In this document: positions 4,396 through 19,632 of the stretch, piece by piece
Numbering within the stretch: the first letter of the stretch is position 1
Layout: the number at the start of each line of letters is the position of its first letter
Source of the DNA: a virus
Virus record (IMG/VR): IMGVR_UViG_3300031688_000164
Coordinates: 1 to 21,363 of that record
Length of the DNA stretch: 21,363 bases
Direction: 5' to 3' (one strand)
The notes under the pieces: model-generated
Told to the model about the DNA's origin: nothing
Database searches by the model: none
Seen by the model: only the letters and a program-made list of their open reading frames with translations
Program-made: the position numbers and the translations under genes

Positions 4396-4593
4396 ATGAA
4401 ATCTAAAGTAAGCATTGTAACTAACACTCCGAAGGCGGCTCCAAAGGCCACTACTTACGCTGATATTAAGGGTCAAGGCCGTATTCCTTATGGCAAGACT
4501 GCTGAAGTAAAGATACCTACTACTATGACTCGCATGACTGCTCGCGGCATGGGTGCCGCTGTTAAGGGCGGCGGCTACATGGGTTGTAAGTAA
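4396..4593 (+). CDS. Small Gly/Lys-rich protein with ARG-x-GA motif
   Basis: A 65-residue basic protein of unknown function starting 1 nt after the portal stop, with an AGGGG ribosome-binding site at the end of the portal gene. I chose ATG 4396 over longer in-frame options because those would overlap the portal coiled coil. The C-terminus reads TARGMGAAVKGGGYMGCK. The ARG-x-GA core also occurs in the 105-residue protein at 13357-13674 (ARGCGAV), and both have a nearby Cys and a Lys/Gly-rich context. There is no membrane segment or enzymatic motif. I infer a small virion or DNA-associated protein. Close packing with the portal supports a real gene. Confidence 0.7.
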   Translation: MKSKVSIVTNTPKAAPKATTYADIKGQGRIPYGKTAEVKIPTTMTRMTARGMGAAVKGGGYMGCK

Positions 4594-4594
4594 A

Positions 4595-5788
4595 GTGTTT
4601 AACATAGACTTGTCTAGCCTTCCTAATTTCCCACCTAACTGGGACGAAATGACCGATGCCGAGAAATCGGCGTGGTTTAGAGAAAGGGCTGGTACGGCGG
4701 GTGGCGGTAGCAATAACCCGGACGGTATTCCCCCCGCAGTCGGTAACGTAGATGACGGTCGTACAGGAACTACTGGAACTACTGGAACTACTGGAACTAC
4801 TGGAACTACTGGAACTACTGGAACTACTGGCACTGCCGACCCTACTTCACAGGTAAGTTCGGGATTAGGCTCTTTATTTGTAGGTCAAGATGGTAAGGCC
4901 GTTTACACCTCTGACGGTCAATTAGTCGGTAATCAGGGTACTGGCGGGCCCATGTTCGATTTGGACTCGGACGGAGACGGAGTACCTGACGGCTATTTTT
5001 ACAATAGCTACTCAGAAGGTCAGTCAACCACCTCCTTATCTTGGCAACCCGCTACGGATGGTTCGGGACAAGGGGTATTTAATTACACCGATCCTGAAAC
5101 GGGTGCAGGAACTTTATTAAATCCCGGTCAAAAAATACCGGGTACGGGATATGGCGCAGACGCTAGGTTTGCCCCAGTTGGTCCCGACGGCGAAGATTAC
5201 GGTTTTTACGACAGTGAAGGTCGTGCGCTTTACGATGAGTTTGGTAGGACAATTGACCCTGAAACGGGCAAAGTGGATGATCAAATGGGTGCGGCTATTC
5301 GCAATATGGATACCAGCAACCTAGACCCACTTAGGCAGTACTCTGCTACTCGCCCTAATGATCCCAAAAACATCAATCCAATGTCTCAATATGGGCTACG
5401 GTTTCAAGACCCTAACGCACCAAAAGATACTGGTTCTGTGCCAAAAGCCCCCGAGCCTTACGTTCCCCCGGTTTATGACCCCGTTTTCCCCGAGTACGCT
5501 ACTAACCCGGGTGGAACACCTATTTCTCCGGTTGCACCACAGGCGAACCCTTTCTTGACTCAGCCTGTCAACGCAATAGCACCTCCGCCGGTAAGCCCTT
5601 TTGCTACTACGGTAGCACCTCCGCAGGTAAGCCCTTTTGCTACTACGGTAGCACCTCCGGTGCAGGCCAATCCTTTTCAAGGTGGAATAGGGTCTTTTGT
5701 ACAACAGCCCGAGGTAGCTCAACCTGTAGAACCCGTAGAGCAACCAGTACAACAACCTGTGTCAAACAATTTGTTTGGTGGAGGGTAA
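4595..5788 (+). CDS. Repeat-rich Gly/Pro/Thr protein with calcium-type Asp motif
   Basis: A 397-residue protein of unknown function. I chose GTG 4595, 1 nt after the previous stop; an upstream in-frame start at 4553 would overlap that gene by 41 nt. The N-terminus carries FPPNWDEMTDAEKSAWFRE. Residues 58-78 are seven Gly-Thr-Thr triplets coded by a perfect 9-bp tandem repeat. Residues 122-133 read DLDSDGDGVPDG, an Asp-rich loop like the calcium-binding repeats of thrombospondin type 3. The C-terminal 90 residues are Pro/Val/Gln-rich with repeated APPPVSPFATTV units and several NPF or SPF triplets, and end in LFGGG. The whole looks extended and low-complexity, more like a linker or surface protein than an enzyme. 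It sits between the portal and the lysis genes. Its role as a virion or accessory structural protein is inference. Confidence 0.75.
   Translation: MFNIDLSSLPNFPPNWDEMTDAEKSAWFRERAGTAGGGSNNPDGIPPAVGNVDDGRTGTTGTTGTTGTTGTTGTTGTTGTADPTSQVSSGLGSLFVGQDGKAVYTSDGQLVGNQGTGGPMFDLDSDGDGVPDGYFYNSYSEGQSTTSLSWQPATDGSGQGVFNYTDPETGAGTLLNPGQKIPGTGYGADARFAPVGPDGEDYGFYDSEGRALYDEFGRTIDPETGKVDDQMGAAIRNMDTSNLDPLRQYSATRPNDPKNINPMSQYGLRFQDPNAPKDTGSVPKAPEPYVPPVYDPVFPEYATNPGGTPISPVAPQANPFLTQPVNAIAPPPVSPFATTVAPPQVSPFATTVAPPVQANPFQGGIGSFVQQPEVAQPVEPVEQPVQQPVSNNLFGGG
4766..4828 (+). repeat. Seven perfect copies of a 9-bp tandem repeat (GGAACTACT)
   Basis: GGAACTACT is repeated seven times without a mismatch, followed by one degenerate copy (GGCACTGCC). 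It codes for Gly-Thr-Thr triplets. Because the unit is 9 bp, copy-number changes by slippage keep the reading frame. The lack of synonymous changes suggests recent expansion or active length variation. Confidence 0.95.
5578..5660 (+). repeat. 36-bp direct tandem repeat in the Pro-rich tail
   Basis: Two nearly identical 36-bp units (5578-5613 and 5614-5649) and an 11-bp start of a third. The units differ at two neighbouring bases only (CCGCCGG versus CCGCAGG context). They code for the 12-residue unit APPPVSPFATTV / APPQVSPFATTV. This is consistent with recent unequal duplication. Confidence 0.9.
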
Positions 5789-5987: not shown

Positions 5988-6458
5988 ATGATCGCAGAAA
6001 TTTCCGCCGTAGTAGGGATACTCAAGGCGCTTAACGATGGGATATCTACTGTCAAGGAAAGCGGGAGTCACTTAACGGGGCTGTCGGGGGTTTTTGACGG
6101 CTTAACAAAAAGCAAGGCCGCTGTAGAGCAGATCGAAACAGATGTCAAAGAAGGTAACCATATCATTACTCAGGAGGAGGCTCTTGAGCTTGCTTGGGTT
6201 AAGCAGGATATCCGTCAGAAAGAAAAAGAACTAAAGAAATGCACTCCGCGAGAGGTCTGGCGAGACATGCTTGCCATTCAGCACAAATCCCTTATGGATG
6301 ACAAACAGCGCCGCGAGAAGGCTCGTTTAGCCAAGAACAGGGCTATAACCAAACGAGATGAAATGATAAAGAACATTCTTGGGGTATTGTTCCTTGCCGT
6401 CCTTGGCGCAGGGGGCTGGTACGCTATGGAAGTTATTAAGGTGTTTGACAGACAATGA
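5988..6458 (+). CDS. Membrane-anchored helical protein of the lysis block
   Basis: A 156-residue protein of unknown function. It has a mildly hydrophobic N-terminal helix (MIAEISAVVGILKALNDGIS), a long charged helical middle with many Lys, Arg and Glu, and one clear membrane segment at about 128-150 (ILGVLFLAVLGAGGWYAM). I recall similar short proteins with this N-terminus and a TPREVWRD-like centre in marine T4-like and podovirus genomes, without assigned function. The start has AGGAG at 5978-5982, overlapping the previous stop. Its 3' end overlaps the next gene by 4 nt (ATGA), implying coupled translation. The position among small membrane proteins upstream of a lysozyme suggests a lysis or envelope role. 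A spanin-like function is possible but lacks direct support. Confidence 0.75.
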   Translation: MIAEISAVVGILKALNDGISTVKESGSHLTGLSGVFDGLTKSKAAVEQIETDVKEGNHIITQEEALELAWVKQDIRQKEKELKKCTPREVWRDMLAIQHKSLMDDKQRREKARLAKNRAITKRDEMIKNILGVLFLAVLGAGGWYAMEVIKVFDRQ

Positions 6459-6775
6459 CACCGAAAAGACTAGAGAAAGAAAGCAAGTACTCTGAGTTTG
6501 ACTTAGATAACGATGGCATCGTCACTGACGAGGAAATTGCTCGTCACACGGAGATGGCTGATCAGACTATCAGGGAAGAGAAGGCAGACTCACAAAGAAA
6601 GATGGCGTGGGTCGCTATGGTTAGTATGTGCGTCTATGCCCTGCTTCCTATAATGCCTTTCATTCCCGAATCAAGATTATCTACTATAGCTTCATTAAGT
6701 GACATGCTGTTTCTGTCTCAGGCCAGTGTGATCGGAATGTTTTTTGGCGCGACTGCCTATATGACGAGGAAGTAA
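6455..6775 (+). CDS. EF-hand protein with two membrane segments
   Basis: A 106-residue protein. Residues 16-27 (DLDNDGIVTDEE) form a textbook EF-hand loop: Asp at loop positions 1, 3 and 5, Gly at 6, Val at 8, Thr at 9 and Glu at 12. It is flanked by helices (KRLEKESKYSEF and IARHTEMADQTIRE). Two membrane segments follow at about 50-70 (MAWVAMVSMCVYALLPIMPFI) and 82-103. Only one EF-hand is present, whereas most functional EF-hands come in pairs, so dimerisation may be needed. The start overlaps the preceding stop by 4 nt. Its size, two TM segments and position before a holin-like gene and lysozyme suggest a holin or holin regulator that senses calcium. That function is inferred. Confidence 0.8.
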   Translation: MTPKRLEKESKYSEFDLDNDGIVTDEEIARHTEMADQTIREEKADSQRKMAWVAMVSMCVYALLPIMPFIPESRLSTIASLSDMLFLSQASVIGMFFGATAYMTRK

Positions 6776-10463: not shown

Positions 10464-11375
10464 ATGGCTATTTCTCGCGCACAATTAGCGAAAGAGCTTG
10501 AACCCGGCCTTAATGCCTTGTTCGGCTTGGAATACGACCGTTACGAAAACGAGCATTCGGAGATTTTTGAAGAAGAGTCTTCCGACCGTGCTTTTGAAGA
10601 AGAAGTAATGCTCGGTGGTTTCTCAACTGCACCCGTTAAAAATGAAGGCGGAAACGTCAGCTTTGACGATGCACAAGAGACTTACACTGCACGTTACTCT
10701 CACGAGACTATCGCACTTGCTTTCTCTATTACTGAAGAAGCGATTGAAGATAATCTTTATGATCGACTAGCATCACGCTATACCAAAGCTCTGGCACGTT
10801 CCATGGCTCAAACCAAGCAAATCAAAGCGGCTTCTATCTTGAACAATGCGTTCTCGACAGGTTCTAGTGCGATTGGCGACGGTGCGGCCCTGTGTTCTGC
10901 TGCTCACCCATCTTTGTCAGGTAACCAGACTAATCTTCTGGCTACTCCGGCTGACCTCAACGAGACTTCTCTTGAGCAAATGCTGATTGACATTGCTGGT
11001 CTGACTGACGAGCGTGGTCTGAAGATCGCTGTACGTGGCATGAAGCTGATTATTCCGAAAGAACTGCAATTTATTGCAGAGCGAGTAATCAACTCTAACC
11101 TCCGCAGTGGTACCGCAGACAATGATAATAATGCAATGAAGAACATGGGAATGTTGCCGGAAGGCGCAGTGGTTAACCACTTCCTAACTGATTCAGATGC
11201 ATACTTTATCAAGACTGATGCTCCAAACGGCTTCAAATACTTCAACCGTTCGCCTATTAAGACGGCAATGGAAGGAGACTTTGACACCGGCAATATGCGC
11301 TTTAAAGCCCGTGAAAGATACAGCTTCGGCGTATCTGATTGGCGCTCTGTGTTCGGTACTCCCGGCGCGGCGTAA
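10464..11375 (+). CDS. Major capsid protein (HK97 fold, Mu gpT-like)
   Basis: A 303-residue protein expected to build the icosahedral shell. Features resembling the Mu gpT-like capsid group are an N-terminal helical segment (LAKELEPGLNALFGLEYDRY), then EEEVMLGGFSTAPVKNEGG, SITEEAIEDNLYDRLASRY and ALARSMAQTKQIKAASILNNAF. The later part has a peptide suited to the P and A domains (IAVRGMKLIIPKELQFIAER) and ends with FKARERYSFGVSDWRSVFG. There is no large N-terminal delta domain, in keeping with the separate scaffold gene. AGGGGG precedes the ATG. A strong terminator follows 17 nt after the stop, which makes this the last gene of its transcription unit and allows high expression. Confidence 0.88.
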   Translation: MAISRAQLAKELEPGLNALFGLEYDRYENEHSEIFEEESSDRAFEEEVMLGGFSTAPVKNEGGNVSFDDAQETYTARYSHETIALAFSITEEAIEDNLYDRLASRYTKALARSMAQTKQIKAASILNNAFSTGSSAIGDGAALCSAAHPSLSGNQTNLLATPADLNETSLEQMLIDIAGLTDERGLKIAVRGMKLIIPKELQFIAERVINSNLRSGTADNDNNAMKNMGMLPEGAVVNHFLTDSDAYFIKTDAPNGFKYFNRSPIKTAMEGDFDTGNMRFKARERYSFGVSDWRSVFGTPGAA

Positions 11376-11391
11376 GCCTATGTTGTTATGG

Positions 11392-11421
11392 AAGGGCGGC
11401 ACTTGCCGCCCTTTCTTTTTT
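11392..11421 (+). terminator. Rho-independent terminator after the major capsid gene
   Basis: The stem AAGGGCGGC / GCCGCCCTT (9 bp, loop ACTT) runs 11392-11413 and is followed directly by TTTCTTTTTT. It lies just after the capsid stop codon. The stem is GC-rich and the U-tract is good, so it should work as an intrinsic terminator, perhaps partly, limiting read-through to the downstream genes. Confidence 0.92.
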
Positions 11422-12675: not shown

Positions 12676-12960
12676 ATGGCTACTACAAAAGATGTTGAAA
12701 GACTTCCCAGTGGCCGTATAAAGTACCGTGGGGAGACTTTTCCGGGTTTTAATAAACCAAAAAAGACCCCTAAAAAATCTAAAAAAAGCGCCGTTTTAGC
12801 TAAAAAAGGCTCTGAAATCAAACTAGTTCGGTTTGGTGACCCCAACATGTCCATTAAAAAAGACCAGCCTGCCCGGAGAAGCAATTTTCGGGCTAGGCAT
12901 AAGTGCGACACCGCAAAAGATAAGTTTTCAGCGCGTTACTGGAGTTGTAAAGCATGGTAA
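12676..12960 (+). CDS. Small Lys/Arg-rich protein with conserved C-terminal Trp/Cys motif
   Basis: A 94-residue protein with 27 Lys or Arg. The N-terminal half is Lys/Pro-rich and probably disordered; the conserved half reads VRFGDPNMSIKKDQPARRSN, then FRARHKCDTAKDKFSARYWS and CKAW. I recall this C-terminal pattern (FGDPNM, ARR, FRARH, YWSCK) in many marine phage proteins without known function. The two Cys and one His could bind metal or form a disulphide. It overlaps the next gene by 7 nt. It is the first of five adjacent small Lys-rich genes. Nucleic-acid binding within the virion is a reasonable inference. Confidence 0.75.
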   Translation: MATTKDVERLPSGRIKYRGETFPGFNKPKKTPKKSKKSAVLAKKGSEIKLVRFGDPNMSIKKDQPARRSNFRARHKCDTAKDKFSARYWSCKAW

Positions 12961-13199
12961 GCGCAGTTAACTTAGGCGCAGGATCGCCCAAATCAAACAA
13001 ATGTGCCGTTATCCGCATGAAAAAAGGCGGATCGGTAAAAAAGAAGTCTGGCGGAAAGATTTGCCCAGAGGGTAAAGCTTGGGCAAAGCGTACTTTTGAC
13101 ACGTATCCCTCGGCCTACGCTAATTTAGCGGCTTCTAAATACTGTAAAGACCCTAATTACGCCAAGAAATCTAAAGGCGGTAAAAGAAAAGGACGTTAA
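12954..13199 (+). CDS. Small Lys/Gly-rich protein with CPEGKAWAKR motif
   Basis: An 81-residue protein with 21 Lys or Arg. It contains IRMKKGGSVKKKSGGK, then ICPEGKAWAKRTFDTYPSAY and ANLAASKYCKDPNY, ending in a Lys/Gly/Arg tail. The pattern CPxGxAWAKRTFxxYPSAYAN is one I associate with marine phage proteins of unknown function. Three Cys are present. The ATG lies inside the end of the upstream gene, so the two are probably translationally coupled. It shares the MKxGG-like element with the other small basic proteins here. Confidence 0.75.
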   Translation: MVSAVNLGAGSPKSNKCAVIRMKKGGSVKKKSGGKICPEGKAWAKRTFDTYPSAYANLAASKYCKDPNYAKKSKGGKRKGR

Positions 13200-13200
13200 C

Positions 13201-13347
13201 ATGCCTCATTCTACAAAAGATTTAGATAAAGTTATTGCTGGTTTAAAAAAAGCGTCTAAGCTTCATGCAAACCAAGCAAAAGTTTTGGAAAAAATAAAAA
13301 AAGACCATAGCAAAGGCTATGAGAAAAAGAAACCTAAAAAGAAGTGA
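13201..13347 (+). CDS. 48-residue Lys-rich protein
   Basis: A short gene starting 1 nt after the previous stop, with AAAGGACG before the ATG. It encodes 48 residues, 16 of them Lys and none Arg: MPHSTKDLDKVIAGLKKASK at the start, a single likely amphipathic helix, and a C-terminal EKKKPKKK. No family is recognised. Tight spacing, ribosome-binding site and the matching composition of its neighbours support it. A DNA- or RNA-binding peptide is possible. Confidence 0.62.
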   Translation: MPHSTKDLDKVIAGLKKASKLHANQAKVLEKIKKDHSKGYEKKKPKKK

Positions 13348-13356
13348 GAACATCTT

Positions 13357-13674
13357 GTGGGTGATTTAAAGAAGTGGGTTGACCAAGACTGGGTTAGGAT
13401 AGGGTCTGATGGTAACATTAAAGGGTCTTGCGGGACTTCTAAAGACACTAAAAACCCAGATAGGTGCTTGCCCCGTAGTAAAGCGCAGTCTTTGTCAAAA
13501 TCAGAGCGAGCGGCAACTGCGCGGAAAAAGAAGGCTTCTAAGAAAAAAGTTGTGAAAAACACTAAAGCGGCAGAAGTGCAGAAAATGAGTAAAGGCGGTG
13601 TGATTGCAAGAGGTTGTGGTGCGGTCATGTCTAATCGTAGAAAAAGAACCCAAGGTTCTGTTGTAAAACTTTAA
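13357..13674 (+). CDS. Basic protein with WVRIGSDG and ARGCGAV motifs
   Basis: A 105-residue protein started by GTG 13357 (ribosome-binding site weak, TGAGAA). The N-terminal domain reads KKWVDQDWVRIGSDGNIKGS, then CGTSKDTKNPDRCLPRSKAQ and SLSKSERAATARKKKASKKK. I recall this CGxSK/CLPxxKAxSL pattern in marine phage and other viral proteins of unknown function. The C-terminus, KMSKGGVIARGCGAVMSNRR, is a second module. Its ARG-x-GA core recurs in the 65-residue protein at 4396-4593. The two Cys of the first module may form a metal site or disulphide. It looks like a fusion of two short modules. The role is unknown. Confidence 0.74.
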   Translation: MGDLKKWVDQDWVRIGSDGNIKGSCGTSKDTKNPDRCLPRSKAQSLSKSERAATARKKKASKKKVVKNTKAAEVQKMSKGGVIARGCGAVMSNRRKRTQGSVVKL

Positions 13675-13686
13675 CGAGGTATAGCT

Positions 13687-13863
13687 ATGCGTGGATCAAC
13701 TAAGTACATGAAGAGCGGCGGTGCTGCTAAGAATAAAACAGCTAAGTACATGAAGAGCGGCGGTGCTGTTGCATCTAAAGCTAAAAAGAAAGAGTCAGGT
13801 ATGACTGTTGCACAAGCGCGGTCGTTCTTGAAAGATAAAGGTTACAAAGTTGTAAAGACGTAG
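13687..13863 (+). CDS. 58-residue Lys-rich protein with duplicated segment
   Basis: A short gene with GAGG upstream of ATG 13687, encoding 58 residues of which 16 are Lys or Arg. The segment TKYMKSGGA/AKYMKSGGA occurs twice, from a 27-bp direct repeat. The C-terminal MTVAQARSFLKDKGYKVVKT looks like a small helix-turn-strand unit. The stop TAG shares its last base with the GTG start of the next gene, which indicates coupling. No family is recognised. Confidence 0.65.
   Translation: MRGSTKYMKSGGAAKNKTAKYMKSGGAVASKAKKKESGMTVAQARSFLKDKGYKVVKT
13700..13768 (+). repeat. 27-bp direct repeat, two copies
   Basis: A 27-bp sequence beginning CTAAGTACATGAAGAGCGGC is present at 13700-13726 and 13742-13768, identical in both. 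It codes for KYMKSGGA. The perfect identity suggests a recent local duplication. Confidence 0.93.
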
Positions 13864-14543
13864 TGTCTTACCTAATTAGTAACATTCCGCACTTTAAGTG
13901 CTGGGTTAGGAAAGAATACACTTGTAACCATTTGCGTTATCAAGGCGAGTATTTACATGCACTTGCTATTGCCGTAAATACTATTCCAGACCGATCTTTA
14001 AGCTTTCAAGTTGTTTTTACAGGGTGTGAGAACGATGACGAAGAAATAGATGACGTTCATGGGGGTGCAATGTGGGCTAGGATGCCCCTACAGGCGTTGG
14101 TTGCCGATATTGTAATGCCAGAATGGCCTGAAGAAATGGCCGATCATTTGGCGCAACCGTGGGATTGCGAGTCCCGGGATCATTCTGTGATTACTATGGA
14201 CCGCGTTAGTAGCAGTCCTTGGGTAGCTAAGATAGACCACGAGTTTTACTCTGCTCGCTACATGTTTACTGTGGATTATACCGATCACCACATAGCGGAT
14301 GATCCCGCACAGCATAAACAGAGTCATGTGATGTATATTACAGAACCCGGTCCTTGGTATGGTAATATAGTGGCATTACCAAACAACCGAGTTCGGGCAA
14401 CTAGCCCAGCTTTGTGGAAGACAGGGCAGGGCGCACCGGATTTTTGCCCAAATCAGCGTGTTCATTCGGCTGAAGGGCATGAAAGTTATACAGACCCGTC
14501 TATTGTTTTTGATAATTTATATTCAGACAGTGACGGAGAATAA
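13863..14543 (+). CDS. Conserved 226-residue phage protein, function unknown
   Basis: A soluble protein beginning at GTG 13863, whose first base is the last base of the preceding TAG stop. Conserved-looking stretches are FKCWVRKEYTCNHLRYQGEY, MWARMPLQALVADIVMPEW, PWDCESRDHSVITMDR, YMFTVDYTDHHIADDPAQHK and MYITEPGPWYGNIVALPNNR, ending with DPSIVFDNLYSDSDGE. Proteins with this series of blocks are frequent in marine phage genomes near capsid and adaptor genes, to my recollection, always unannotated. It is rich in His, Trp and Cys, with no recognised catalytic motif. Being in the structural operon, it may be a virion protein, but an enzyme or host-interaction protein cannot be excluded. Confidence 0.75.
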   Translation: MSYLISNIPHFKCWVRKEYTCNHLRYQGEYLHALAIAVNTIPDRSLSFQVVFTGCENDDEEIDDVHGGAMWARMPLQALVADIVMPEWPEEMADHLAQPWDCESRDHSVITMDRVSSSPWVAKIDHEFYSARYMFTVDYTDHHIADDPAQHKQSHVMYITEPGPWYGNIVALPNNRVRATSPALWKTGQGAPDFCPNQRVHSAEGHESYTDPSIVFDNLYSDSDGE

Positions 14544-14558
14544 CGAGGATAATTAAAC

Positions 14559-15443
14559 ATGGCAACCTCTAACAGCACTAATTTTGAGCTAGACGTTACC
14601 GAATATATTGAAGAAGCGTTTGAGCGTTGCGGCTTAGAGGTTCGTACAGGTTATGATCTTAAAACAGCAAAACGATCTTTAAACATTATGTTAGCCGAGT
14701 GGGCCAACCGAGGTTTAAATGCGTGGACTATTGAAGAAATTACCATTCCTCTGGCAACAGGGGTAGGTGTATATCCTGCGGGCACGTTAACTATTTCAGT
14801 AGCGTCTTCCACTGGATATACCGTTGCCGAAACAATTACTGGCGGAACTAGCGGAGCAACAGCTACCGTAACAAGCGTTCCGTCGGCCACAAGTCTAGCC
14901 ATTACAATACCAGAAGGTACTTTCAGTCTTAGTGAAACACTTACAGGCGGAACTAGCAGTACAGCGTCAACTGTATCGGCAGTCGTAGACTTTTCCAACG
15001 TAAACTCTACTATTGATTTGTTGTCTGTGGTGGTCACTCGATCTGCAACTGACTTTAGTGTTGCTCGTTTAAGCAGAGATGGCTTTTTTAGTATCCCCAA
15101 TAAGGCTACCACTGGAAGAGCTAACCAATATTTTATTGATCGGTTAGTAACACCTACTTTAAAAATTTGGCCGGTACCCGAAAATAACACCGATGTCATA
15201 AAATTTACTCGTTTAACTCGAATACAAGATGCCAACACTCCTACAAACACCTTAGAAATACCTTTCCGTTTCTACCCTTGTTTAGCGGCAGGTCTGGCTT
15301 ACTACCTTTCGGTAAAAAGAGCGCCGAATAAGGTACAGTTGCTAAAGACTATTTATGAAGAAGAGTTTGATCGCGCCATGATGGAAGACCGTGATCGCGC
15401 TTCTTTTAACATTACCCCAAGCTACATGTACTTTAGGTCTTAA
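14559..15443 (+). CDS. Head-tail adaptor, P22 gp4-like, with beta-rich insertion
   Basis: A 294-residue protein likely to bind the portal and connect it to the tail. The N-terminal helical region (DVTEYIEEAFERCGLEVRTG, then DLKTAKRSLNIMLAEWANRG) resembles the helices of P22 gp4-type adaptors, where a similar LxxMxAEW pattern occurs. The later part has STIDLLSVVVTR, RDGFFSIPNKATTGRANQYF and PTLKIWPVPENN, then RFYPCLAAGLAYYLSVKRAP. Between them, about residues 72-148, is a Thr/Ser/Gly-rich region with two similar units (ETITGGTSGATATVTSV and ETLTGGTSSTASTVSAV) that looks like an added beta domain exposed on the virion. The gene is followed after 2 nt by the next one. Confidence 0.75.
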   Translation: MATSNSTNFELDVTEYIEEAFERCGLEVRTGYDLKTAKRSLNIMLAEWANRGLNAWTIEEITIPLATGVGVYPAGTLTISVASSTGYTVAETITGGTSGATATVTSVPSATSLAITIPEGTFSLSETLTGGTSSTASTVSAVVDFSNVNSTIDLLSVVVTRSATDFSVARLSRDGFFSIPNKATTGRANQYFIDRLVTPTLKIWPVPENNTDVIKFTRLTRIQDANTPTNTLEIPFRFYPCLAAGLAYYLSVKRAPNKVQLLKTIYEEEFDRAMMEDRDRASFNITPSYMYFRS

Positions 15444-17523: not shown

Positions 17524-19632
17524 ATGGCTAGTACATATACAACTTTCTTAGGGCTTGAAAAGCCCGGTACGGGGGAACAATCCGGTACTTGGGGGGACAC
17601 TACAAACACCAATATGGACATGCTAGATCAAGCGGTTGACGGGATTATTTCGGTTACATTGTCTGCCACAGGTTCAACAGGTTCCCCAAACTCTTTACCT
17701 ATTACAGACGGCGCTGTTTCTAACGGGCGTAACAAATACATTGAGTTTGTTGATGGCGGAGATATTGGCGCTACGGTCTACGTTGCTTTAACGCCAAACG
17801 ATGCTGAAAAGGTGGTGTACTTCCGTAACAGCCTTTCCGGCTCACGCTCTATTCTTATTTTTCAAGGCACATATAACACCAGCAATGATTTTGAATTGTT
17901 GGCTGGAAAAGATTATGTCCTTAAATTTAATGGCGGCGGTTCAGGTGCCACCGTTACTGACGTAAATGCTAACTTAGCGGTTACTGCGCTTACTGCGACA
18001 ACTTTAAACGGTACAACCGTTACGGCCTCTGGAGTAATTACAGGATCAACTGTCGAAGCTACCGGAGACACTGCCGCTGGCGATAACGCGGCAATGGGTT
18101 TTACCGCCGCAGAAGGTCTTATTCTAACCGGACAAGGCTCTACGAATGATGTAACCATCAAGAATGACGCAGACGCAGATGTAATTGAGATTCCTACGGG
18201 AACAACTACTGTAAATTTTGCAGGTGCTGTGGATGTTGTTGGAGACTTAACTGCGGCTACGTTTACTCCGGACGGAGATACTGCGGCAGGTGATTCCGCC
18301 GCGATAGGCTTTACCGCAGCAGAAGGTCTTATCCTAACCGGCCAAGGCTCTACGAATGACGTAACTATTAAGAACGATGCTGACGCAGATGTTCTTGAGA
18401 TTCCAACCGGTACGGTAAACGTAACAGTTGCGGGAGACTTAGTCGCCGCGGGTACTTTAAAAGCAACGGGTGACACCGCCGCTGGAGACGGTGCCGCGCT
18501 AGGATTTACCGCCGCAGAAGGATTGATCCTTACAGGTCAGGGCTCTACCAACGATGTCACTATTAAGAACGATGCGGATGCCGCTGTTTTACAGATTCCA
18601 ACCGGTACGGTAAACACAACTCTTGCAGGTACTTTGGGTGTAGCGGGAGGTTCCACCAACGGTGTGGTCCTATCTCAGGGAGATATAGCCCTAAAGAATG
18701 GTGGAACTAGGTCAACAGTTAAGTTTTATTGCGAGTCAAACAACGCGCATTATGCTCAACTTCAAGCACCGGCACACTCTGCGTTCTCAGGCAATGTAAC
18801 CCTTACCCTCCCAGCATCTACGGATACTCTGGCGGGTATTGCGGCAACACAGACGCTGACTAATAAGACTCTTACAACTCCCGTTTTAAACTCCCCAGAC
18901 ATCACTGGCGGTACTGCGGCGGGCGACGATGCGGCTCTTGGTTACACTTCTGCGCTAGGTCTGGTGTTGACTGGGCAGGGATCATCAAACGACGTAACAA
19001 TAAAGAACGATGCCGATGCGGCTGTTCTTACCGTACCAACCGGAACCACCAACGTAGCAGTAGTAGGCGACTTAGCAGTCGGCGGGTCAATCACTGACTC
19101 AGGCGCGGCAGTTAAAGTTGCGGGTCTTGAGACTATCTATGTCCCAGCGGCGGGTATGTACCCAGAGACAACAAACGGTGCTTCAGACTTGACTCAAGTA
19201 GAGCTATCAAACGGCCCGGAGCTTAAATGCCTCGACTTTGCGGCGGCGGCAGATGACTTCGCTCAGTTTCAGGTTATATTTCCTAAAAGTTGGAACGAAG
19301 GCACGGTTACCTTCCAAGCGTTCTTTACTGTCACTGGAACCAACACAGGTACAGTAGCGTGGGGATTAGCAGGTAGAAGTTTTGCGGATAGTGCAGACCT
19401 AAACACGGCCTTTGGAACTCAGGTAGTGGCAACAGCTAAAGCTCACTCTGGAACGTCTAACGACATAGATGTAGCGGCAGTAAGCGGAAATGTAACCATT
19501 GCTGGAGCGGCGGCTGATACTCTGACCATCTTTCAGATTGCTAGAGATGTTTCGGCAGACAACCAATCGGGCGCTGCGCGTTTGTTAGGCATTAAGCTGT
19601 TCTTTACCACTGACGCGAAGAATGACGCATAA
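17524..19632 (+). CDS. Tail fibre protein with repeated modules
   Basis: A 702-residue protein likely to form the receptor-contacting fibre. The N-terminal block TTFLGLEKPGTGEQSGTWGD, TTNTNMDMLDQAVDGI is the usual particle-attachment end of marine phage fibres. Residues 180-360 and 461-525 hold four copies of a module with the core GFTAAEGLILTGQGSTNDVT, IKNDADA and a following IPTGT, probably beta-helix or shaft repeats. A TLPASTDTLAG and TLTNKTLTTPVLNSPDITGG segment, common in fibre shafts, lies before the fourth copy. The C-terminal 160 residues (IYVPAAGMYPETTNG, FAQFQVIFPKSWNEGTVTFQ, VAWGLAGRSF) are a beta-sandwich head domain that I recall in many marine fibres. GAGGG lies upstream of the ATG. 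No chaperone autocleavage motif is recognised. Confidence 0.82.
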   Translation: MASTYTTFLGLEKPGTGEQSGTWGDTTNTNMDMLDQAVDGIISVTLSATGSTGSPNSLPITDGAVSNGRNKYIEFVDGGDIGATVYVALTPNDAEKVVYFRNSLSGSRSILIFQGTYNTSNDFELLAGKDYVLKFNGGGSGATVTDVNANLAVTALTATTLNGTTVTASGVITGSTVEATGDTAAGDNAAMGFTAAEGLILTGQGSTNDVTIKNDADADVIEIPTGTTTVNFAGAVDVVGDLTAATFTPDGDTAAGDSAAIGFTAAEGLILTGQGSTNDVTIKNDADADVLEIPTGTVNVTVAGDLVAAGTLKATGDTAAGDGAALGFTAAEGLILTGQGSTNDVTIKNDADAAVLQIPTGTVNTTLAGTLGVAGGSTNGVVLSQGDIALKNGGTRSTVKFYCESNNAHYAQLQAPAHSAFSGNVTLTLPASTDTLAGIAATQTLTNKTLTTPVLNSPDITGGTAAGDDAALGYTSALGLVLTGQGSSNDVTIKNDADAAVLTVPTGTTNVAVVGDLAVGGSITDSGAAVKVAGLETIYVPAAGMYPETTNGASDLTQVELSNGPELKCLDFAAAADDFAQFQVIFPKSWNEGTVTFQAFFTVTGTNTGTVAWGLAGRSFADSADLNTAFGTQVVATAKAHSGTSNDIDVAAVSGNVTIAGAAADTLTIFQIARDVSADNQSGAARLLGIKLFFTTDAKNDA
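18061..19095 (+). repeat. Four diverged copies of a 190-210 bp module in the fibre gene
   Basis: Copies begin at 18061, 18271, 18466 and 18904. Each codes for GDTAAGD or GGTAAGD, then G(F/Y)T(A/S)AxGL(I/V)LTGQGS(T/S)NDVTIKNDADA. At the protein level they are nearly identical, but at the DNA level they differ mostly at third codon positions, so they are old and kept by selection. The fourth copy is separated from the third by about 250 bp of other shaft sequence. Confidence 0.88.

Follow-up and report, generated by a model that had tools for sequence, protein, structure and literature searches.

A conserved cassette of small, interchangeable lysine-rich modules in the head gene block of a tailed phage

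A cassette of five lysine-rich genes in the head region

We analysed five adjacent genes (open reading frames ORF1 to ORF5) encoding small lysine-rich proteins in a 21,363-base IMG/VR virus record (IMGVR_UViG_3300031688_000164), the whole of which is called the window below. The record belongs to a tailed phage, marine as judged by its relatives; by capsid protein, the closest named ones (60-73% identity) are DSL-LC04, 023Pt_psg01, HTVC027P/023P and CRP-901/902. Its genes run from the end of a putative large terminase through portal (phrog_1216), lysis, scaffold-like and capsid genes and two more genes to the five ORFs, which are followed by a 226-residue gene (phrog_3704) and then by connector and tail genes. 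Gene names given without a phrog or Pfam number, including that of the large terminase end, are our own reading. All five ORFs are on the plus strand; the distance from one to the next is -7 to +12 nucleotides (nt) (Table 1).

The preliminary description of this DNA had singled out the five products as strongly basic, and the charge count bears this out: per residue they are the top five of the 34 window genes, a 65-residue protein encoded at 4396 being the sixth. Purifying selection acts on all five, as shown by the median pairwise ratios of non-synonymous to synonymous substitution (dN/dS; pairs at 75-97% identity with dS < 2, 15 to 150 pairs per family). In scans of viral contigs, at least 593 relatives of ORF1, at least 597 of ORF2 and at least 408 of ORF4 were confirmed. 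The loci retained were the best ~80 per scan out of ~600 candidate matches and are biased to close relatives. Their genes were called by a home-made codon score, and families were grown by iterated HMMER searches (E-value 1e-4) on 27,933 open frames. The description had also held that none of the five has a known function. This is right, although ORF1 (phrog_7595, Tlr6f superfamily), ORF2 (phrog_27331, DUF5872-like) and ORF4 (phrog_23735) fall in families that, in the open-access literature searched, had already been named without a function. Nothing in Pfam scored above cut-off for any of the five.

Table 1. Coordinates of the cassette, its motifs and reference genes in the window
Feature	Position	Strand	Description	Evidence or remark
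ORF1	12676..12960	+	94 aa (amino acids), Tlr6f/DUF5754-superfamily module (phrog_7595)	net charge +19; dN/dS 0.067
ORF2	12954..13199	+	81 aa, 'KRTFDTYPSAYANLAASKYCKD' module, DUF5872-like (phrog_27331)	phrog_27331 6e-23; net charge +18; dN/dS 0.077
ORF3	13201..13347	+	48 aa, Lys-rich	relatives in 45 loci; net charge +11; dN/dS 0.171
ORF4	13357..13674	+	105 aa (phrog_23735), predicted 'LKKW..WVRI...CGTS...RCLP' folded core and basic disordered tail	GTG start; net charge +20; dN/dS 0.106
ORF5	13687..13863	+	58 aa, KYMKSGGA repeat protein with C-terminal TVAQARSFLKDKGYKVVK element	42-nt direct repeat; net charge +14; dN/dS 0.103
MKKGG of ORF2	13017..13031	+	M(K/S)(K/S)GG motif	sequence; enrichment
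MSKGG of ORF4	13585..13599	+	M(K/S)(K/S)GG motif	low-confidence beta hairpin in model
First MKSGG of ORF5	13708..13722	+	M(K/S)(K/S)GG motif	sequence; enrichment
Second MKSGG of ORF5	13750..13764	+	M(K/S)(K/S)GG motif	sequence; enrichment
ORF4 C-terminal tail	13606..13650	+	ARGCGAVMSNRRKRT	tail statistics in relatives
65-residue protein	4396..4593	+	basic, just after portal gene, ends ARGMGAAVKGGGY...	relatives in 88 loci; dN/dS 0.118
ARGMGA of 65-residue protein	4540..4557	+	tail of RGxGxAxxG type
Major capsid protein	10464..11375	+	phrog_371, PF25209	context anchor; dN/dS 0.044
Connector-type gene	14559..15443	+	authors' naming	downstream anchor

Sequence families of the five proteins

ORF1 matches phrog_7595 at 7e-21; it also matches phrog_9979 in the C-terminal part of that family (2e-14). 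Its score against PF19058 (Tlr6f, DUF5754) is 10.7 bits (E 0.57), below the Pfam gathering cut-off of 27.4 bits. An 86-residue protein of phage NCTB exceeds this cut-off (43.8 bits), and hhalign pairs it with the ORF1 family alignment A1 (probability 96.4%, E 1e-9). Because the NCTB protein matches both, ORF1 is assigned on sequence grounds to the Tlr6f superfamily via this intermediate and not via the Pfam cut-off. The pattern FG...(R)RxxFxxRH...YW.....W is common to both families; the ORF1 subfamily differs by an RHxC...YWSC pair and, here, by being one gene of a head cassette. The available part of one source describes Tlr6f as ubiquitous and uncharacterised in polinton-like viruses, giant viruses and phages (PMC12220804), and that of another as found in polinton-like viruses, giant viruses and some phages and as resembling no domain of known structure or function (PMC4642659). 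Papers from 2013 and 2015 describe it, without a known function, as conserved in virophages as well as in polinton-like viruses, giant viruses and some phages.

The AlphaFold2 model of ORF1 has a mean predicted local distance difference test (pLDDT) score of 89 and a predicted template modelling (pTM) score of 0.74. Among predicted viral structures, Foldseek returned 21 matches to it at E <=0.001, among them ICP1 ORF125 and proteins with the names ChaB and XkdF. Giant-virus proteins (Tunisvirus, Chloriridovirus, F2Y0K8) were matched with probability 0.93-0.99, yet with E 0.06-0.15. Searches of solved structures with ORF1, ORF2 and profiles A1-A3 yielded nothing convincing. We regard the ORF1 family as virus-only: a scan of 84,980 genomes of bacteria and archaea gave three relatives, each from a contig of a Flavobacteriaceae metagenome-assembled genome. 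Cyanophage KBS-S-2A has the module as a separate gene, flanked by a minor head gene and a coat gene.

ORF2 has no Pfam match and thus stays below the PF19197 (DUF5872) cut-off of 27.5 bits. Its relative in CRP-2 matches PF19197 at 44 bits, and that of locus L286 is also above the cut-off. DUF5872 and the ORF2 family have the K..FD.YPSAYA core in common, to which ORF2 adds Cys and Lys tails with MxxGG. ORF4 matches phrog_23735 at 1e-26; it has weak matches to phrog_12753 (0.001) and phrog_3477 (0.02), in both over the first 76-77 positions. In its AlphaFold2 model residues 1-60 reach a pLDDT of about 80 and residues 85-105 stay below 50; a search with this model gave weak matches (E 0.07-0.4) to cyanophage proteins named DUF6321, DUF5872 and 'Virion protein [S-SCSM1]'. 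The ORF1, ORF2 and ORF4 modules each contain two conserved Cys. ORF3 has no family in PHROGs or Pfam, and ORF5 has no match in PHROGs. A 'PASTA' match of ORF5 (0.011) and a 'Gly-zipper' match of a relative were dropped, both being below cut-off.

Conserved position and replacement of ORF1 by DUF6321

The cassette keeps its place in relatives. Counted over 246 non-overlapping locus groups from 398 sources, the capsid gene is followed at 0-6 kb by an ORF4 relative in 77 of the 79 groups showing both, and the distance from ORF4 relative to downstream connector gene is at most 3 kb in 98 of 98. Among the first 227 loci, where overlapping loci were counted separately, the commonest gene orders were ORF1-2-4-5, 1-2-4, 2-4 and ORF1 alone, and the complete order 1-2-3-4-5 was present in 15.

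In some relatives without ORF1, a DUF6321 protein occupies its slot (PF19846; 12/12 aligned members match). Leaving aside loci with less than 3 kb ahead of ORF2, the slot contained ORF1 in 49 of 81 loci, DUF6321 in 24 and neither in 8. Loci found through ORF2 or ORF4 alone gave 27, 23 and 2 (n=52), and whole groups 174, 49 and 23 (n=246). The two never occurred together in any of these counts, which carry no p-value as the phages are related to one another. Such strict alternation suggests that ORF1 and DUF6321 have equal roles. Comparison of their profiles aligned a 15-column RRKSFxAR stretch alone, with a probability of 27%, and we therefore treat the exchange as a replacement and not as proven kinship. 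No similarity was found between the ORF1 and ORF4 profiles.

Fusions of the modules with each other and with capsid proteases

The five proteins had been proposed to be built from shuffled short modules, and fusions of the modules with each other, with DUF6321 and with capsid proteases support this. Among relatives of the phage, ORF3 is fused N-terminally to the ORF2 module in one gene (L225), ORF4 continues into ORF5-like repeats (L194) and an ORF2-type protein carries the ORF4 tail (L234). Longer combinations are found in T4-like cyanophages. ORF29 of S-SCSM1 (517 residues) contains an ORF4-type module at 64-138 (E 5.5e-6; hhalign 92.4%), an ORF2-type module at 217-247 (E 4e-5) and DUF6321 at 445-515 (3e-22), and an S-B43 protein contains the same three (ORF4 type, E 0.002; ORF2 type, 5e-4; DUF6321, 2e-20). 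P-SSM4 gene 160 combines the ORF4 and DUF6321 types. In S-SM1 SSM1_115 the ORF2 and DUF6321 types were detected by hidden Markov model, the ORF4 type by eye only. phrog_3477 aligns with ORF4, ORF2 and DUF6321 modules alike. The cyanophage T4-GC119, phrog_727 and phrog_3477 proteins hold in one chain, together with further modules, what are separate genes in the window, where the Tlr6f module replaces DUF6321. The multi-module protein (L406, L414, L412) is located between the small (TerS) and large (TerL) terminase genes in S-SM1 and S-CREM2, and shortly before the large terminase gene in S-SCSM1.

The ORF1 module is also joined to capsid proteases. The C-terminal part of ICP1 gp125 (residues about 183-259), whose gene adjoins portal and scaffold genes, is an ORF1-type module, while in Vibrio phage P018-4 and contig L312 this module precedes the protease domain. 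PF14550 (Peptidase_S78_2) was matched in all three proteins; the protease role of gp125 is itself a prediction, according to the part of PMC9040626 that was available. ORF1 lacks the protease domain and has only the accessory module in common with gp125. The strongest support for the modules belonging together, a conclusion drawn from fusion and synteny, comes from the cyanophage multi-module proteins and the fusions within the cassette. A 124-residue GR7B protein annotated as Peptidase_S78_2 was not counted as a fusion, as the domain is not present.

Two annotation slips were noticed (phrog_1530; L230:4818-5825; L401:3917-4291). The 'DNA methyltransferase' phrog_1530 matches a capsid-protease protein end to end, and the GR7B protein, of Tlr6f type, bears its Peptidase_S78_2 label without that domain.

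Short motifs and C-terminal tails

An M(K/S)(K/S)GG element had been reported in three of the five proteins, and four copies are indeed present in ORF2, ORF4 and ORF5. In shuffled copies of the same five proteins the mean was 0.012, and neither the number of copies nor the number of proteins was reached in any of 20,000 shuffles. The motif is conserved and enriched in relatives, a point on which the preliminary description had made its proposal depend. In relatives, where 3422 distinct plus-strand genes were called, M..GG exceeds shuffles 14.8-fold in the ORF2 family, 17.4-fold in the ORF4 family and 11.7-fold in the ORF5 family, against 5.5-fold in other basic genes of less than 200 residues; non-basic genes, which make up the remainder, are at 0.7-fold. 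The ORF1 family has the motif at close to the chance rate, and the ORF3 and 65-residue protein families lack it. The consensus surroundings are V-x-K-M-x-x-G-G-x-[VA]-K.

The ARG-x-GA motif said to link ORF4 with the 65-residue protein occurs in both (ARGCGA and ARGMGA), inside the last 25 residues. The tails continue differently (GCGxVMxxRRKxT and GMGAAVKGGGY), and for this reason they may be two kinds of tail and not one. In the same gene set, 'GCGx[VIL][ML]..RKxT' ends 108 genes and occurs nowhere else; these genes form 3 body clusters and 105 of them are ORF4 relatives. 'RGxGxAxxG' ends 56 genes in 19 body clusters and occurs once elsewhere (shuffle expectation 0.15); 33 of these genes are of the 65-residue family and the remainder includes doubtful cases, such as one in L227. 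Two or more genes of one locus group carry short tails in 10 of 35 groups. As judged from these patterns, short C-terminal tails are common to otherwise dissimilar basic proteins. We speculate that they could be a loading or anchoring signal; if they load cargo, they would represent a new capsid-targeting peptide.

Sister modules in virions of other phages

Evidence on virion location comes from sister modules in other phages. In the available part of PMC10665884 (Table 3), S-CREM2 gp137 (108049-109521) and gp160 (128342-129235) are listed with 4 and 7 unique peptides, respectively, among 52 virion proteins. The C-terminal end of gp137 is DUF6321 (E 1e-26) and that of gp160 an ORF2-type module (E 5e-6). 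No other module carrier was found in S-CREM2 (whole genome scanned except 50,001-55,999, inside the tail-fibre gene), so that 2/2 carriers are in its listed virion proteome. In the S-SCSM1 record ORF29 bears the label 'virion protein', like the structural proteins, and the paper text does not name it; the authors report, in the part available, 45 proteins detected by mass spectrometry, structural proteins included. The other carrier scans covered S-SM1 from 36,000 onward and its first 2,000 bases, about 93 of the 178 kb of S-SZBM1 and 13 of the 229 kb of S-SCSM1. In total, the four phages have 5 carriers, of which 3 are virion proteins by listing or label, against 0.94 expected from detection rates (P for 3 or more ~0.05). 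S-SZBM1_190, a virion protein encoded at the same place, was dropped as a carrier because it has no module match. No virion proteome was found in the available portions of the P-SCSP1u and P-SSP7 papers.

Possible roles of the cassette

Our preferred reading, to which we give about an even chance, is that the five genes encode a set of internal virion modules, of the prohead core or ejected with the genome, that bind the packaged DNA. Conservation, synteny, ORF1/DUF6321 swapping and fusion are observed; that the proteins of this phage are in its virion and bind DNA is what we infer. The genes would be separate copies of small, basic and interchangeable modules, a set specific to viruses whose members cooperate in building or filling the head. 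After late synthesis the products would enter the prohead, some through their short C-terminal or hairpin motifs and, in other phages, as part of the capsid protease, and would then accompany the packaged genome, either as internal proteins or as ejected ones. ORF1 (Tlr6f type), ORF2 (DUF5872-like) and ORF4 would be compact modules, while ORF3, ORF5 and the tails would be flexible and charge-rich. Head entry is suggested by the protease fusions and the sister modules in virions. The Lys-rich tails would bind DNA, as their charge and their spread over viruses with unrelated capsids suggest; presence across unrelated capsid folds (PMC4642659, available part) would fit a DNA ligand better than a single capsid fold. 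The coating or condensing of nucleic acid, which had been suggested for these proteins, is plausible.

The T4 internal proteins IPI-III provide a likeness in working only, with no sequence similarity claimed. They enter the prohead and have in common a short transferable capsid targeting sequence (PMC7697877, available part), and the five ORFs resemble them as small basic proteins of the head region. The T4 peptide, according to that source, is N-terminal, of about 10 residues and cleaved, whereas the peptides described here lie at the C-terminus or inside the protein and are not known to be cleaved; inspection of the five translations revealed no common N-terminus.

Several observations weigh against an internal, DNA-binding role. 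No DNA-binding Pfam family (HU, histone or similar) matched the five ORFs at E up to 1, nor was a zinc-finger or other DNA-binding Pfam assignment over cut-off, and Foldseek and VIA-align found no PDB relative of the ORF1 model. The virion proteomes examined include no ORF1-type (Tlr6f) protein. SSM1_115 is labelled hypothetical despite a 41-protein S-SM1 virion proteome, and SSZBM1_192 is absent from the main text and tables of its proteome paper. The excess of 3 in 5 carriers is modest, and co-purification is possible, as the proteome authors themselves note. In CRP-2 the ORF1 relative is ahead of the terminase genes and not after the capsid gene. Finally, a strong terminator-like hairpin directly behind the capsid gene (11390-11415; 11 pairs, 8 of them G-C, then a T run) would part the capsid and cassette transcripts unless read through.

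Some of these data would suit assembly or packaging cofactors: the modules would hold protease, scaffold, portal or DNA at the prohead or terminase stage, and would for the most part be missing from mature particles. This is possible, though we doubt it: the fusion of the ORF1 module to capsid proteases, the carrier genes between TerS and TerL in S-SM1 and S-CREM2, the ORF1 relative before both in CRP-2, and the S-SM1 and S-SZBM1 carriers neither labelled nor listed as virion proteins are in its favour, but gp137 and gp160 are in the S-CREM2 virion proteome and S-SCSM1 ORF29 is labelled a virion protein. The preliminary description had raised host take-over peptides. In this reading, extended to ejected effectors, the proteins would arrive with the virion or be made as soon as infection starts, and would bind host DNA, RNA or ribosomes. 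We do not favour it and consider it improbable. The proteins are small, very basic and swapped among phages, and cyanophage virions are reported to contain regulatory proteins (PMC9602691, PMC10665884, available parts); on the other hand, all of the 98 groups that show both anchors have the cassette inside the head/connector block, the modules are fused to capsid proteases and they occur in viruses of very different hosts.

Still less probable is a role as cement or decoration of the capsid, on its outer surface or at the inner face of the shell, in which the charge would be incidental. The two conserved Cys of each module, the strong conservation of the folds and the P-SCSP1a DUF6321 gene directly following the capsid gene would agree with cement. 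Yet the modules are common to viruses with other capsid folds, and the available text on P-SCSP1u describes its capsid as held by non-covalent coat contacts and mentions no such protein. Lys/Gly-rich repeats like those of ORF3 and ORF5 could arise easily, but purifying selection on all five ORFs with dN/dS far below 1, the hundreds of relatives of ORF1, ORF2 and ORF4 and the recurrent gene order leave chance low-complexity frames without function a negligible probability.

If the modules are internal virion proteins, Tlr6f would gain its first concrete place, the head interior, through the DUF6321 slot, the ORF2 and ORF4 partners, the prohead-protease fusions and the sister modules in cyanophage virions, and the question can now be tested in cultured marine phages. 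The DUF6321 alternation, the fusion link and Tlr6f in a head cassette are new here; the link between the modules was not found in the open-access literature searched. A wider proposal, which we regard as rather unlikely, is that Tlr6f, DUF5872, DUF6321 and the ORF4 module form a virosphere-wide virion-nucleoid toolkit, found in tailed phages as well as in giant and polinton-like viruses of eukaryotes, whose capsids are unrelated; tails of RGxGxAxxG and RGCGxVM type would be a transferable C-terminal capsid-loading signal.

Other features of the window and its relatives

The 226-residue gene behind the cassette (13863-14543) has a GTG start that overlaps the ORF5 stop, and the gene is conserved in relatives. 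Its family, phrog_3704, is described as ferredoxin, and the gene has no Pfam match. Small phage proteins of the group contain EF-hand-like loops (DxNxDGxI; window 6455-6775, L236:4655-5020, L113:2208-2753), which in relatives are joined to KGG repeats and RGxG tails; they are possible calcium-binding head or tail parts. Between the terminase end and the portal gene, a 543-residue gene (312-1943) encodes an HEFYH (HExxH) motif and has no Pfam match. The 411-residue gene after the portal contains a nine-base tandem repeat encoding Gly-Thr-Thr (4744-4851), and a 702-residue tail-fibre-like gene contains three 182-nt direct repeats (18043-18629; 74-100%).

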